64,000 nucleotides of DNA from Calditrichota bacterium. Lineage in GTDB: Bacteria; CLD3. A program made the translations under genes and the position numbers. The notes beneath the pieces were generated by a model. That model was not told the origin of the DNA and searched no databases. It saw only the letters and a program-made list of their open reading frames with translations. Shown here piece after piece: positions 25,732-55,184 of this stretch. Each line of letters begins with the position of its first letter. The first letter of the stretch is position 1. Location of the stretch: the NCBI GenBank assembly GCA_008501735.1, contig QQUF01000033.1, forward strand, positions 62,001-126,000, written 5' to 3'.

Positions 25732-27885
25732 ATGAAAAATATTGCACAACAAATTTCGACAGATTTAAATCTCAACTTTTCATTTGTAAGAAATGCTTTG
25801 AACTTGTTTGAAGAAGGTTCAACAGTACCATTCATCGCTCGTTACCGAAAGGAAAAAACAGGAAGTTTGAACGAAATCCAACTTCGAGAAATTTTCGAAA
25901 AATTCACTTACTACACTGAACTCGAAAATCGTAAACAAACAATTCTTCAAACGATTTCTGAACAAGGAAAACTCACTGACGAACTTAAAACCAAAATTGA
26001 AAGTTCCTTGTTAAAAAATGAACTCGAAGACCTTTACTTACCTTTTAAACCCAAACGAAGAACTCGTGCGACAATTGCTAAAGAAAATGGTTTAGAGCCT
26101 TTTGCAGAGTTTATCAAATCACAAAACGTCCACTCTTCGCCAAAAGTAAACTTAGTTTCAGAAGCAAAAAAATACTTGAGCAAAAATATCGAAACTCCAG
26201 AAGATGCAATTATCGGAGCGTCAGATATTTTGGCAGAAGAAATTTCAGAAATCATTGAACTTCGTTCGTTTGTACGAGATGAATTTTGGAAAAACGGTTT
26301 TCTTGTTTCAAAAAAGAAAGGCAAATTTGAAGGAGAACAAACAAAATTTGACTCTTACAAAAGCTACAAATCAAAATTAGGTTTCATCGCTCCACACTCT
26401 TTCTTAGCAATTTTGCGTGGAGAAGAAGAAGGCTTCTTAAGTGTAAAAATTGAAGTTGACGAAAATAAAATTCTTGACCATTTTGACCGAAAATTGATTT
26501 TTTCAAAAGACAAGGAACTTTACGATTTTTATCAAAAAACAAATTATGAAAGTTTTGACAGGCTTTTCAGAAATTCAATTTCTTCTGAAATCCGCCAAAT
26601 GAAAAAGGAGTTTTCGGACAAAGAATCAATCCTAAATTTTGGTAAAAACCTTAGAGATTTACTTCTTTCAAGTCCAGCAGGGATGAAAACAACAATCGGA
26701 ATTGACCCAGGATTTCGGACAGGTTGTAAAGTTGTAGTTATTGACTCAACAGGGAAATTTTTGGAATACCAAAATATTTTTCCGCACACTTCAAGACTTA
26801 GTGAAAGTGCAGTTGCTTACGACACTTTGTGTGAATTAATTGAAAAACACGAAGCGAAATTAATCGCAATTGGAAACGGCACAGCAAGTCGAGAAACTGA
26901 TAAATTTGTTACAGAAGTCCTTGAAGAATTTGAGGAGAAGCCAATAAAAGTTACCGTAAGCGAAAGTGGAGCTTCAATTTACTCTGCAAGCGAAGTCGCA
27001 ATTGAAGAATTCCCAAACTTGGATTTGACGGTTCGAGGAGCAATTTCAATCGCAAGACGTTTGCAAGACCCTTTAGCAGAACTCGTGAAAATTGACCCAA
27101 AATCCATTGGAGTTGGTCAGTACCAACACGATGTTGACCAAAAACTTTTAAAAACAAAATTAGACGAAACTGTTGAAAGTTGTGTGAATTTTGTTGGAGT
27201 TGACTTAAACACAGCTTCTAAAGAGCTACTGAGTTTTGTCTCTGGAATTAATAAAAGTGTTGCTCTTAACATCGTGAATTTTAGAAACCAAAACGGAGCT
27301 TTTCAGACAAGAGAAGAATTGAAAAAGATTCCACGTTTTGGAGCAAAAGCATTTGAACAAGCGTCAGGATTTTTGCGAATCAGAAACGGTGAAAATCCAT
27401 TAGACAACACGGCAGTTCACCCCGAAAGCTACTTTTTAGTGGAAAATATTGCCAAAGATTTAAAACTTCCTCTAAAATCAATTACTCAAAATCCTGCAAA
27501 GCTAAAAGATTTAGACATCAAAAAATACGTTACTGAAGAAATCGGTGAACCGACTTTGGTTGACATTTTGGAAGAGTTACAAAAACCTGGAAGAGACCCA
27601 AGAGAAGAATTTAGTTACGCAAAATTCGACGACAAAATCAATGAAATTTCTGACTTAAGTGTTGGAATGATTTTGGAAGGAATCGTTACGAACGTTACAA
27701 ATTTTGGAGCATTCGTTGACATTGGAGTTCACCAAGACGGTTTGGTTCACGTTTCGCAACTCGCAAACAAATTTGTAAAAGACCCAACTCAAATCGTGAA
27801 AGTTGGACAAATCGTGAAAGTAAAAGTTACAGAAGTGAATGAAAAATTAAAACGAATCCAACTCTCAATGAAAGCAGTATCTTGA
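25732..27885 (+). CDS. tex: Transcription accessory protein Tex (S1 RNA-binding)
   Basis: Tex is a conserved nucleic-acid-binding protein linked to transcription and RNA metabolism and related to eukaryotic Spt6. The 717-residue length is typical. The N-terminal Tex domain contains VPFIARYRKEKTGSL (about 32-46). A YqgF/RNase H-like domain starts at TIGIDPGFRTGCK (about 322). Helix-hairpin-helix motifs follow (NTASKELLSFVSGI, IPRFGAKAFEQASGFL), and a C-terminal S1 domain (GMILEGIVTNVTNFGAFVDIGVHQDGLVH) ends at MKAVS. The last coding bases and the TGA stop lie inside the first REP-like hairpin of a 99-bp tandem duplication. Confidence 0.97.
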   Translation: MKNIAQQISTDLNLNFSFVRNALNLFEEGSTVPFIARYRKEKTGSLNEIQLREIFEKFTYYTELENRKQTILQTISEQGKLTDELKTKIESSLLKNELEDLYLPFKPKRRTRATIAKENGLEPFAEFIKSQNVHSSPKVNLVSEAKKYLSKNIETPEDAIIGASDILAEEISEIIELRSFVRDEFWKNGFLVSKKKGKFEGEQTKFDSYKSYKSKLGFIAPHSFLAILRGEEEGFLSVKIEVDENKILDHFDRKLIFSKDKELYDFYQKTNYESFDRLFRNSISSEIRQMKKEFSDKESILNFGKNLRDLLLSSPAGMKTTIGIDPGFRTGCKVVVIDSTGKFLEYQNIFPHTSRLSESAVAYDTLCELIEKHEAKLIAIGNGTASRETDKFVTEVLEEFEEKPIKVTVSESGASIYSASEVAIEEFPNLDLTVRGAISIARRLQDPLAELVKIDPKSIGVGQYQHDVDQKLLKTKLDETVESCVNFVGVDLNTASKELLSFVSGINKSVALNIVNFRNQNGAFQTREELKKIPRFGAKAFEQASGFLRIRNGENPLDNTAVHPESYFLVENIAKDLKLPLKSITQNPAKLKDLDIKKYVTEEIGEPTLVDILEELQKPGRDPREEFSYAKFDDKINEISDLSVGMILEGIVTNVTNFGAFVDIGVHQDGLVHVSQLANKFVKDPTQIVKVGQIVKVKVTEVNEKLKRIQLSMKAVS

Positions 27886-28074
27886 GATTCTGACTCTAAG
27901 TCAGGTTCTCAATTCTAAATCTATAACTGAGAGCCTCATTTTGAATGAGACACTCAGAAAATTAAATTTGAAAATGTATCTTGAGATTCTGACTCTAAGT
28001 CAGGTTCTCAATTCTAAATCTAAAACTGAGAGCCTCATTTTGAATGAGACACTCAGAAAATTAAATTTGAAAAT
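27877..28074 (+). repeat. 99-bp tandem duplication carrying two REP-like hairpin pairs
   Basis: Copies at 27877-27975 and 27976-28074 differ at a single base (CTATAAC versus CTAAAAC). Each holds two 31-nt imperfect hairpins: 27882-27912 with 27927-27957, and 27981-28011 with 28026-28056. Each hairpin is 6 bp, a 2x2 mismatch, 6 bp and a 3-nt loop. Arms are TTGAGA-TT-CTGACT / AGTCAG-GT-TCTCAA and CTGAGA-GC-CTCATT / AATGAG-AC-ACTCAG. The first copy starts in the last codons of tex. The hairpins belong to the same family as those around the transposase at 54462-55010. No real gene is encoded here. Confidence 0.9.
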
Positions 28075-28079
28075 GAACT

Positions 28080-29201
28080 ATGAAATTATTATTAGCATTA
28101 ATCTTATTCTTCGCAGCTTTTGCCAACTCTCAAGCACAAAATAAACTTGGAATTTGGCTTTGGTTTATTGAAGGAACTGGTTTTACTCATTCCGAACTTG
28201 CAGACACTTTAGCAACAATTGGAGTCAAAAGAATTTACGTAAAAGTAGCTGATGGAAGTTTAAACACAACAACTTGGCCCGAAGTCGCAGACACAACATT
28301 AGTCCAAACTTACAAAAATGCAGGTTTGGAAGTTTGGGCTTGGTCTTACAACTACGACAATAATTACAACGCTCAAGCAAACGCTCTTACTCTTGCCGCT
28401 CAAACAGGTTACGAAGGTTACGTCGTTGACATTGAAACCGAATTCAACAACAAAACAACTGAATTGCACAGCCTTTTCAGCGAGTTTGAAAGTGCCAAAA
28501 ACAGTGTCATCGCAAATGGAACTGCAAACTCAGATTTCAAACTTTACTGCACAACTTGGGGAAATCCGATTACTCACAATATGCACATCGAAATTATTGA
28601 CCAATACGTTGATGGACATATGCCACAAACTTATGTTGAAAAATGGGGAATTTTTGCTTACCAAAATGTTGTTTACACAGTGAATCAAGGCACTTTAGAA
28701 TACCAAAGTTTTGGAATCCAAAATCCTGTTCACCACTTGGTTAGTGCAGAATTAAACGTGATTACTGCAACAAAGATTGATTCATTTTTTATGGCTTCTG
28801 GTTCTGAATCCGCACTTTGGCGAGTTCCGGGAGCTGGAACAACTTTGAACATTTGGAACACTTTAAACTCTGTAAATTGGAATGCCGATTTCTCTGTTTC
28901 GGCAAAAGAAAGAAACAACAAACCTCAAACAATTTCGCTTTCTCAAAACTATCCAAATCCTTTCAACCCTTCGACTTCAATAAACTACGAAATACAAATT
29001 ACGAATTACGATTCTCCGAGATTGAGCATCTACAATGTTTTAGGCAATAAAATTAAGGATTTTACATTAAGCAAAGCTAAGGGAAGTGTTGTTTGGGACG
29101 GAAAAAATTTTGAAGGGAAACAAGTTTCAAGCGGAAAATATTTCTATGAGCTAAAAAATGGAACTGAAAGAAAAGTACGTCAAATGACTTTGATAAAATA
29201 A
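28080..29201 (+). CDS. Secreted TIM-barrel-like protein with T9SS sorting domain
   Basis: The 373-residue product has a signal peptide (MKLLLALILFFAAFANSQAQ). Residues about 20-260 look like a glycosidase-type TIM barrel. IGVKRIYVKVADG, LEVWAWSYNYDN and GYVVDIETEF resemble successive beta-strand ends of GH18/GH25/DUF4434-like folds, with acidic residues in the DIETE strand. I cannot assign a substrate. The T9SS sorting domain (NYPNPFNPSTSINYE to RQMTLIK) marks it as cargo. The start codon lies 5 nt behind the second REP-bearing repeat, which therefore forms its whole leader. Confidence 0.7.
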   Translation: MKLLLALILFFAAFANSQAQNKLGIWLWFIEGTGFTHSELADTLATIGVKRIYVKVADGSLNTTTWPEVADTTLVQTYKNAGLEVWAWSYNYDNNYNAQANALTLAAQTGYEGYVVDIETEFNNKTTELHSLFSEFESAKNSVIANGTANSDFKLYCTTWGNPITHNMHIEIIDQYVDGHMPQTYVEKWGIFAYQNVVYTVNQGTLEYQSFGIQNPVHHLVSAELNVITATKIDSFFMASGSESALWRVPGAGTTLNIWNTLNSVNWNADFSVSAKERNNKPQTISLSQNYPNPFNPSTSINYEIQITNYDSPRLSIYNVLGNKIKDFTLSKAKGSVVWDGKNFEGKQVSSGKYFYELKNGTERKVRQMTLIK

Positions 29202-29212
29202 TTTACAGCTTT

Positions 29213-29245
29213 ACTTATCAGATGGCTTTGAGCCATCTGATAAGT
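29213..29245. other. Perfect 15-bp hairpin between convergent genes, overlapping the end of the DUF2784 gene
   Basis: Arms 29213-29227 and 29231-29245 (ACTTATCAGATGGCT and its exact complement) enclose a 3-nt loop. The right arm and loop encode the last residues and stop of the minus-strand gene. No T-run follows on either strand, so a simple intrinsic terminator is not supported, although it lies where one is expected. Confidence 0.7.
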
Positions 29246-54383: not shown

Positions 54384-54452
54384 GTGAGAACCCGACTCAG
54401 AGTCGGAATCTCACAACTCTTCTGAGATTCTCACTCCCAGTGAGGCTCTCAG
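54384..54452. repeat. REP-like hairpin pair downstream of the RAYT gene
   Basis: Two 31-nt hairpins, 54384-54414 (GTGAGA-AC-CCGACT, loop CAG) and 54422-54452 (CTGAGA-TT-CTCACT, loop CCC), are separated by 7 nt. Each has 6 bp, a 2x2 mismatch, 6 bp and a 3-nt loop. The pair ends 9 nt from the transposase stop codon. Confidence 0.9.
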
Positions 54453-54461
54453 TTTCTAAAA

Positions 54462-55010
54462 TCAAATCCAGTATTTTGCTTTAACTTCTGAAATTATCGT
54501 TTGCGAAAATTTGTAGTAGGATTTTGGGTTTTCAAATTTCGACAAAATTAGTTCTTTCTTAGGCAAACTTCCATTTCGCAATTCGACGTAATCTTGGAAA
54601 CTGCTAAACTCCCAATCTTCTTGTTTGTCAACTAAATTTGCTCGTAATGGGTTTTGGTGAATGTAAGTTACAAGGTTTACAAAATAGCTTGGTTCATCAA
54701 CCAATTTCATTTTCGCGTGTTTCTGAAACAAACTACCTTGCCTACGAAATCGTTTGTTAATTCCTCTTGTGTAAGAACTTTGTAAAGTGCCGATTTTACT
54801 TTTTAGCTCTGAAATGTCTTCTGAAATAATTTTAATCAAAAAATGAAAATGTGTTGGCATCAGACAGTAAGCAATTGTTTCAAGATGCTCGTCAAGGTGA
54901 AATCTGTATTTTCGTAAAAAGTAGATGTAGTTGTCTCTTTCTTTGAAAAGTAATTCACGATTGTTACTTCTGTTGTAAAAATGGTAGTAGTTGTCTTTGT
55001 AAAGTTCCAT
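54462..55010 (-). CDS. REP-associated tyrosine transposase (RAYT, Y1/IS200-like HUH family)
   Basis: The 182-residue product has the RAYT layout: YYHFYNRSNNRELLFKERDNY at the N-terminus, the HUH metal-binding motif in YCLMPTHFHFLIKI (HFH near residue 56), the basic RFRRQGSLFQKHAKMK, and the Tyr-bearing VTYIHQNPLRANLVDKQEDWEFSSFQDY. RAYTs act on single-stranded REP hairpins, and their genes are usually bordered by them. Here paired palindromes lie on both sides (54384-54452 and 55038-55184). The gene appears intact. No IS ends or target-site duplications are seen, as expected for RAYTs, which usually stay single-copy and vertically inherited. Confidence 0.9.
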   Translation of the reverse strand: MELYKDNYYHFYNRSNNRELLFKERDNYIYFLRKYRFHLDEHLETIAYCLMPTHFHFLIKIISEDISELKSKIGTLQSSYTRGINKRFRRQGSLFQKHAKMKLVDEPSYFVNLVTYIHQNPLRANLVDKQEDWEFSSFQDYVELRNGSLPKKELILSKFENPKSYYKFSQTIISEVKAKYWI

Positions 55011-55037
55011 TTATTCCTCATCTTCTGAGATTCATCT

Positions 55038-55184
55038 CTGAGATTCTCACTTCCAGTGAGGCTCTCAGTTTGATTTTAAAGTTTAGCGAGAAAGCCCGTT
55101 TTAATGTTTAGCGAGTGAGAGCCCGACTCAGAGTCGGAATCTCACAAAATCCTCTGAGATTCTCACTCCCAGTGAGGCTCTCAG
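55038..55184. repeat. REP-like hairpin cluster upstream of the RAYT gene
   Basis: Three 31-nt hairpins lie at 55038-55068 (CTGAGA-TT-CTCACT, loop TCC), 55115-55145 (GTGAGA-GC-CCGACT, loop CAG) and 55154-55184 (CTGAGA-TT-CTCACT, loop CCC). The last two form a pair with an 8-nt spacer, matching the pair on the other side of the gene. A remnant, CTGAGATTC, precedes the first. A 10-bp direct repeat GTTTAGCGAG (55081-55090 and 55106-55115) lies between, perhaps a scar of a deletion. Confidence 0.88.

Follow-up and report, generated by a model that had tools for sequence, protein, structure and literature searches.

To our knowledge, the recognition and spread of REP elements by REP-associated tyrosine transposases (RAYTs) have been studied in only three proteobacterial REP systems, and the hairpins of Bacteroidetes RAYTs have previously been set aside as atypical. 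Two recognition modes have been published, that of bulged hairpins for group 2 and that of perfect hairpins for group 3. The closest described system consists of the Escherichia coli REPs (y, z1 and z2) and TnpA-REP (RAYT group 2, subclass 2.2), whose elements, like the hairpins described here, are imperfect and carry a 2x2 flaw in the middle of the stem. In E. coli, this bulge is A12A13-G26C27, with C or T favoured at position 27, and its unpaired state rather than its bases is needed for TnpA-REP activity (PMC8266576); here, the flaw is T7T8-G24C25, with C or T at position 25 in all tabulated copies. The inverted BIME arrangement, the intergenic location and a cognate HUH RAYT of the same fold are common to both systems. 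Unlike the E. coli REPs, however, our hairpins have no GTAG foot, their 3-nt loop is closed by a T-A pair, and their flaw may shift by one pair. Unlike TnpA-REP, the RAYT studied here has 182 aa and the motifs THFH, FQ and YIHQNP. The best PDB match of its predicted structure (pLDDT 92.5) is 4er8, the complex of E. coli TnpA-REP with a REP hairpin (E 3.4e-8, about 19% identity in the structural alignment).

In Stenotrophomonas and Pseudomonas, as here, the RAYT gene is flanked by cognate hairpins and stem changes are compensated; such changes were reported by Nunvar 2010 (PMC2817692) and called common by Bertels and Rainey 2011 (PMC3116915). However, the REPs of those genera have a GTAG or GTGG foot and are mostly perfect palindromes, and the REPIN doublet forms one long hairpin. 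The IS200/IS605 elements (IS608, ISDra2) share the Y1 HUH transposase fold and have flawed subterminal hairpins that are recognised as single strands, whereas in the present genome it is the hairpins that occur as many scattered copies, and not the RAYT. The main text of Quentin et al. 2018 places structures without GT[AG]G beside genes of subclass 2.6 (Bertels group 5), which come mostly from Bacteroidetes and encode proteins with NH[LIV]H, WQ and YIH[QN]NP and a median length of 179 aa; no hairpin grammar for this subclass was found in that main text (PMC6006769). The lack of a GT[AG]G tag, the copies elsewhere in the genome, YIHQNP and the length of our RAYT all resemble subclass 2.6, whereas THFH and FQ differ from its NH[LIV]H and WQ as given there, FQ agreeing with subclass 2.1 (PMC6006769). 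No published subclass fits the motifs completely. Judged by these motifs, we describe the protein as a probable close relative of subclass 2.6 rather than file it as a member.

Covarying REP stems and bulges required by the protein are already published. What we add is a quantified covariation, a correction of where the mismatch lies and a geometry common across a RAYT clade, which as a rule appears to be new. A positional rule across hairpins of unrelated sequence leads to a direct test of shape-based recognition, and ready-made substrates exist in the natural variants with compensated stems, from the two subtypes of one genome to dozens of RAYT loci.

Hairpins at tex and at the RAYT gene

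The window, that is, the whole 64-kb stretch of DNA that was analysed, contains hairpins at two places, and a first-pass annotation had proposed that they share one 31-nt geometry (6 bp, 2x2 mismatch, 6 bp, 3-nt loop) and are kept as structures. The features are as follows.

25732-27885, + strand: tex (Tex_N, YqgF-like, HHH and S1 domains), with its stop codon within the first tex hairpin
about 27877-28075, no strand: BIME-like tandem pair of 99-nt units, with one inverted A/B doublet per unit
27882-27912, + strand: hairpin A copy 1, 3' of tex, TTGAGATTCTGACTCTAAGTCAGGTTCTCAA
27927-27957, - strand: hairpin B copy 1 (canonical strand -), CTGAGTGTCTCATTCAAAATGAGGCTCTCAG; G7 pairs with C25 and the mismatch is at 6.26
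27981-28011, + strand: hairpin A copy 2, tandem duplicate with the same sequence as A copy 1
28026-28056, - strand: hairpin B copy 2, tandem duplicate with the same sequence as B copy 1
28080-29201, + strand: gene of a T9SS-sorted protein, on the far side of the tex hairpins
54384-54414, - strand: hairpin A, 3' flank of the RAYT gene, GTGAGATTCCGACTCTGAGTCGGGTTCTCAC
54422-54452, + strand: hairpin B, 3' flank of the RAYT gene
54462-55010, - strand: RAYT gene, 182 aa, HxH (H54/H56), YIHQNP tyrosine (Y116)
55038-55068, + strand: hairpin B, 5' flank of the RAYT gene
55115-55145, - strand: hairpin A, 5' flank of the RAYT gene
55154-55184, + strand: hairpin B, 5' flank of the RAYT gene

The geometry proved real, with four hairpins after tex and five around the RAYT gene. 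The window holds 7 perfect copies (12/12 pairs, the internal 2x2 unpaired) against 0.02 per window resampled from a first-order Markov model, and 10 hairpins with at least 11/12 pairs against 0.9 expected in the same way. All three compensated differences that had been reported between the two places (CCGACT to CTGACT, CTCACT to CTCATT and GTGAGA to TTGAGA) are present in the sequence; they concern pairs 1-31, 10-22 and 13-19. The tex hairpins do differ from those at the RAYT gene, but because the 99-nt unit is duplicated (27877-27975 and 27976-28074, with one difference, in the spacer), the four of them are only two sequences, and the duplicates provide no independent evidence. Moreover, the outer pair described as left unmatched in the second tex hairpin is the actual mismatch (6.26, T.T). 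The observation as a whole was thus confirmed in part. Adjoining a B hairpin, a short tandem repeat of TCATCTTCTGAGAT occupies 55018-55046 and is possibly the broken left arm of an element.

The RAYT protein scored above the cut-off for PF01797 (IS200-like transposase family) and reached 64 bits for NF047646 (REP-associated tyrosine transposase), below the curated cut-off of 80. It has the Y1 HUH fold, the HxH motif and the catalytic tyrosine of a RAYT, and H54, H56 and Y116 are invariant in 21 relatives. As is also typical of RAYTs, palindromes that recur through the genome lie on both flanks of the gene, which is itself low in copy number; a search of its own genome with the protein returned one further homologue, at 55% identity. 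A palindrome unlike the window's, about 85 nt long, lies on either side of this second RAYT (L010 1317-1456 and 2090-2190; G000:C44). Another RAYT-like gene, at a contig end (L173, G000:C48), lies among GTAGGGAACAAAAATTTTTGTTCCCTAC palindromes with GTAG at one end and CTAC at the other, and a further one (L175, G000:C55) lies near AGAGACGCACGGCGGTGCGTCTCT.

Covariation of the stems and the flaw in the helix

The genome (4.14 Mb in 59 contigs, with Bacteroidota-like relatives by RAYT and content) contains about 64 copies of the hairpin, all of which were read with their flanks. A search pattern with 16 fixed positions, which left pairs 1-31, 10-22, 11-21 and 13-19 wholly free and 9-23 free on one side, matched 45 places exactly and further ones at 1-2 mismatches, and degenerate copies were added by covariance model search. 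The weak copy C24:23861 (E 0.49), source of the single double change at 5-27, may be a chance match. On the common strand, the consensus is NTGAG-ATT-CNNACT-NNN-AGTNNG-GYT-CTCAN-T; type B mostly has CTGAG with CTCACT, and type A mostly has GTGAG or TTGAG with CTGACT or CCGACT. The 5' arm begins with NTGAG, the classical REP tag GTAG or GTGG being absent from the 5' foot, and a T follows the hairpin at +1 in 59/61 copies as a conserved foot of a single base. Beyond this, the 3' side is T-rich and the 5' flank is just T-rich. The elements are REP-like in the broad sense, being multicopy, extragenic, imperfect palindromes in inverted clusters.

Among 50 distinct 31-nt copies, 95.2% of the stem cells were paired (85.5% in shuffles) and 62 were changed on both sides, compared with 24.7 after shuffling (0/500 shuffles as high) and with at most 8 for slid pairings. 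Therefore, the stems covary and the hairpins are kept as structures. We also redistributed the substitutions on the copy tree, although the tree of 31-nt repeats is weak; against this null, the top 3 of 465 column pairs were the stem pairs 1-31 (E <0.01), 11-21 (E 0.03-0.06) and 10-22 (E about 0.3), and pairs 3-29, 7-25 and 13-19 were also within the top nine. Uncompensated cells numbered 5/50 at 1-31 and 5/50 at 11-21, and 41 of 122 inferred substitutions fell on the three loop bases. The copy search favoured stem similarity, but most copies fit the fixed stem pattern without mismatch, so this bias is unlikely to explain the contrast. Conservation holds for the family, not for the tex site in particular, and since these are the repeats of one genome, a few source copies may have acquired the compensated changes and passed them on.

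The internal 2x2 mismatch had been described as always at the same place; in fact, the defect shifts outward by one pair in one subtype, to which the second tex hairpin belongs. Across 56 copies, positions 6-8 and 24-26 read ATT/GCT in 20, TGT/GCT in 13 and ATT/GTT in 8, with minor forms besides. In the ATT forms, 6-26 is paired and 7.25 is T.C or T.T, whereas the TGT form has a G-C pair at 7-25 and T.T at 6.26; overall, pairing at 7.25 is seen in 17/56 copies and its absence at 6.26 in 18/56. Position 8.24, the seventh pair from the loop, is a T.G wobble on the common strand in 49/56 copies, which makes the defect a wobble plus a mismatch and not a double mismatch. In 53/56 copies, positions 6-8 retain at least one non-Watson-Crick pair, and 2-3 copies have no flaw. 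The conserved part is the T.G at the seventh pair from the loop together with one neighbouring mismatch, and despite the shift the flaw keeps to pairs 7-9. Of the two signs that the first-pass annotation had named as speaking against structural conservation, a lack of compensation in the stems was not borne out, whereas a drift of the mismatch was seen, by one pair only. DNA folding energy showed no strand preference (26/64 copies), and the wobble is accordingly no evidence for a single active strand.

Related RAYT loci and further palindromes

When 84,980 species genomes were scanned, 80 RAYT loci were recovered; the matches across phyla derive from metagenome bins that may be mislabelled. 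The flanks of the loci searched contained 130 hairpins with 3-nt loops, compared with 9.6 after shuffling. The geometry was counted at 36 loci with good hairpins from the broader clade of the window RAYT, and the stems there differ from those of the window. The pair closing the loop is T-A at 34/36 loci, and the next pair is C-G at 25 and T-A at 8. Non-Watson-Crick pairs are concentrated at pair 7 (12.75 of 37.4 by locus; 0/20000 permutations as high), with pair 9 ranking second. Counting by RAYT clade left the hotspot in place (8.15 of about 23), and it persisted more weakly when the window-like families were dropped from the grouped set (P=0.003). The position of the non-Watson-Crick pairs at a fixed distance from the loop (pairs 7-9) is thus supported for the hairpins of other RAYTs too. 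About half of the related loci nevertheless have a perfect stem without a flaw, and on the RAYT tree the flaw label calls for a minimum of 7 switches on well-supported branches, the label at L089 and L100 resting on one odd copy each. At 24 loci, from each of which one further copy was picked by similarity alone, 26 pairs were changed on both sides, and 23 of these were Watson-Crick (8.4 expected, maximum 17 in 5000 trials).

A second hairpin family in the same genome has the apical sequence ATGGCT NNN AGCCAT, at 8 exact places compared with 0 in the reversed control. In its outer stem, on which the search placed no constraint, two-sided changes number 9, and the 2 unpaired cells are in the outermost pair. 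A model search gave 51 strand-wise matches at roughly 28 places, with no RAYT linked to the family. In 12 copies, filtered to allow such pairs at pairs 5-9, non-Watson-Crick pairs besides the outermost occurred only at pairs 7 and 8. One member lies in the window between convergent genes (29213-29245), a perfect 15-bp hairpin with a 3-nt loop, ACTTATCAGATGGCTTTGAGCCATCTGATAAGT. Two other perfect 15-bp hairpins, AGACCTGACAGGTTTTGAAAACCTGTCAGGTCT and AGACCTGAAAGGTTTTGAAAACCTTTCAGGTCT (L192 1325 and L208 54), differ by a compensated pair and perhaps represent a third family. With covariation in the 50 genomic copies, in the second family and beside 24 other RAYT genes, the proposal that the hairpins are kept as structures was borne out, and the earlier interpretation as a whole is supported in part.

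The genomes available number two in the family and in the order and nine in the class. G001, a relative in the same family, carries 28 copies in a sister form, with inverted doublets, longer conserved flanks and some 4-nt loops. No RAYT was detected in its 270-contig assembly, and the copies are either orphan elements or reflect an assembly gap. The tex gene is present in G001, but no hairpin follows it.

Taken together, the related loci suggest a broader reading, which we put forward tentatively: RAYTs of one clade (Bacteroidota, Ignavibacteriota, Balneolota and a few other phyla) may read a common hairpin geometry, namely a 14-15 bp stem, a 3-nt loop closed by YT/AR and an optional flaw at the seventh pair, while the stem sequence drifts freely by compensation and close relatives among the RAYTs have repeatedly changed between flawed and perfect hairpins, so that both published modes would occur inside one clade.

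Reading of the elements and its alternatives

The 31-nt hairpins, which are scattered through this Bacteroidota genome as single copies and as inverted A/B doublets, are likely to be REP-like elements belonging to the RAYT of 54462-55010. What the data show directly is the kept structure, the link to the RAYT, the arrangement, the intergenic placement and the position of the flaw. In single-stranded DNA, each 31-mer would fold alone, and the RAYT, an HUH tyrosine endonuclease, would probably bind the folded strand and cut or join beside the hairpin, an action that would spread hairpin copies. Besides the shape, the protein would read several fixed bases, namely TGAG/CTCA, the side with GGYTCTCA, the T-A pair that closes the loop and the T 3' of the hairpin, as well as the helix flaw at about the seventh pair. 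Because it would read the shape, these few bases and the flaw, the stem sequence would be free to change so long as pairing is restored. By analogy with the E. coli bulge, recognition of the flaw by the RAYT is plausible. Several findings weaken this reading: the flaw shifts by one pair and is missing in a few copies and at about half of the related loci, G001 has its copies with no RAYT found, and folding energy is without strand preference. A further point against it is that the three other RAYT-like genes in the genome adjoin other palindromes.

The arrangement of the copies bears on the unit that is recognised. Another copy lies within 80 nt of 46 of the 64 copies, and neighbouring copies are inverted in 22 of 26 cases, with spacers of 6-16 nt (6-12 nt in divergent doublets, mostly 12-16 nt in convergent ones). 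Such an arrangement would suit a model like that of Pseudomonas REPINs, in which the doublet itself both moves and folds, and 4 of 16 doublets do fold best as one long hairpin. However, the other 12 fold as two hairpins, and for 18 copies no neighbour is listed within 80 nt. Additionally, A and B differ exactly at 1-31 and 11-21, where internal pairing is kept and pairing with the partner is broken; 17-20 of 24 stem positions match between partners, compared with 10-12 of 12 internal pairs. We therefore regard the doublet as an unlikely folded unit. The A/B differences and the folding of most doublets as two hairpins point instead to the lone hairpin as what is recognised, in contrast to the REPIN model (PMC3116915), although it could still be doublets that move.

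Compensated changes might also come from mutation rather than selection. Quasi-palindrome correction, in which a template switch by the polymerase within the hairpin repairs an imperfect palindrome and makes a double change in one step, is established in bacteria; several double changes on one branch of the copy tree would be in line with this. Yet such correction should erase the flaw first, and the flaw is kept in nearly all copies; moreover, hairpins of unrelated RAYTs carry it at the same distance from the loop. Template switching may contribute to the double changes, but we think it quite improbable that it accounts for the pattern.

The copies are largely intergenic (60/64, judged by computed rather than annotated ORFs), while 89% of random 31-mers from the same loci fall inside ORFs; most lie directly after stop codons, 15 between convergent genes and 2 between divergent genes. 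This placement, the T-rich 3' side and one terminator-like match in the tex region might suggest that the host keeps the hairpins for a role in RNA at gene ends, either as weak terminators or in protecting mRNA 3' ends, but this is very improbable: REPs show the same placement, doublets put the element on both strands without strand preference in folding energy, only one tex hairpin scores as terminator-like, the window gave 0 Rfam matches at the gathering threshold, and one doublet lies inside a coding frame. The terminator and Rfam readings did not hold up.

Two minor observations concern the placement of the elements. The doublet in a coding frame is an inverted B/A pair within an open 685-aa IspG-like frame (L024 1501-1575; G000:C44:187869-187943), where the elements would be translated. 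Elsewhere, hairpins of the family separate large, tandemly duplicated genes of T9SS-sorted surface proteins, about 2.35 kb apart (L021, G000:C37; L005/L015/L016, G000:C9).
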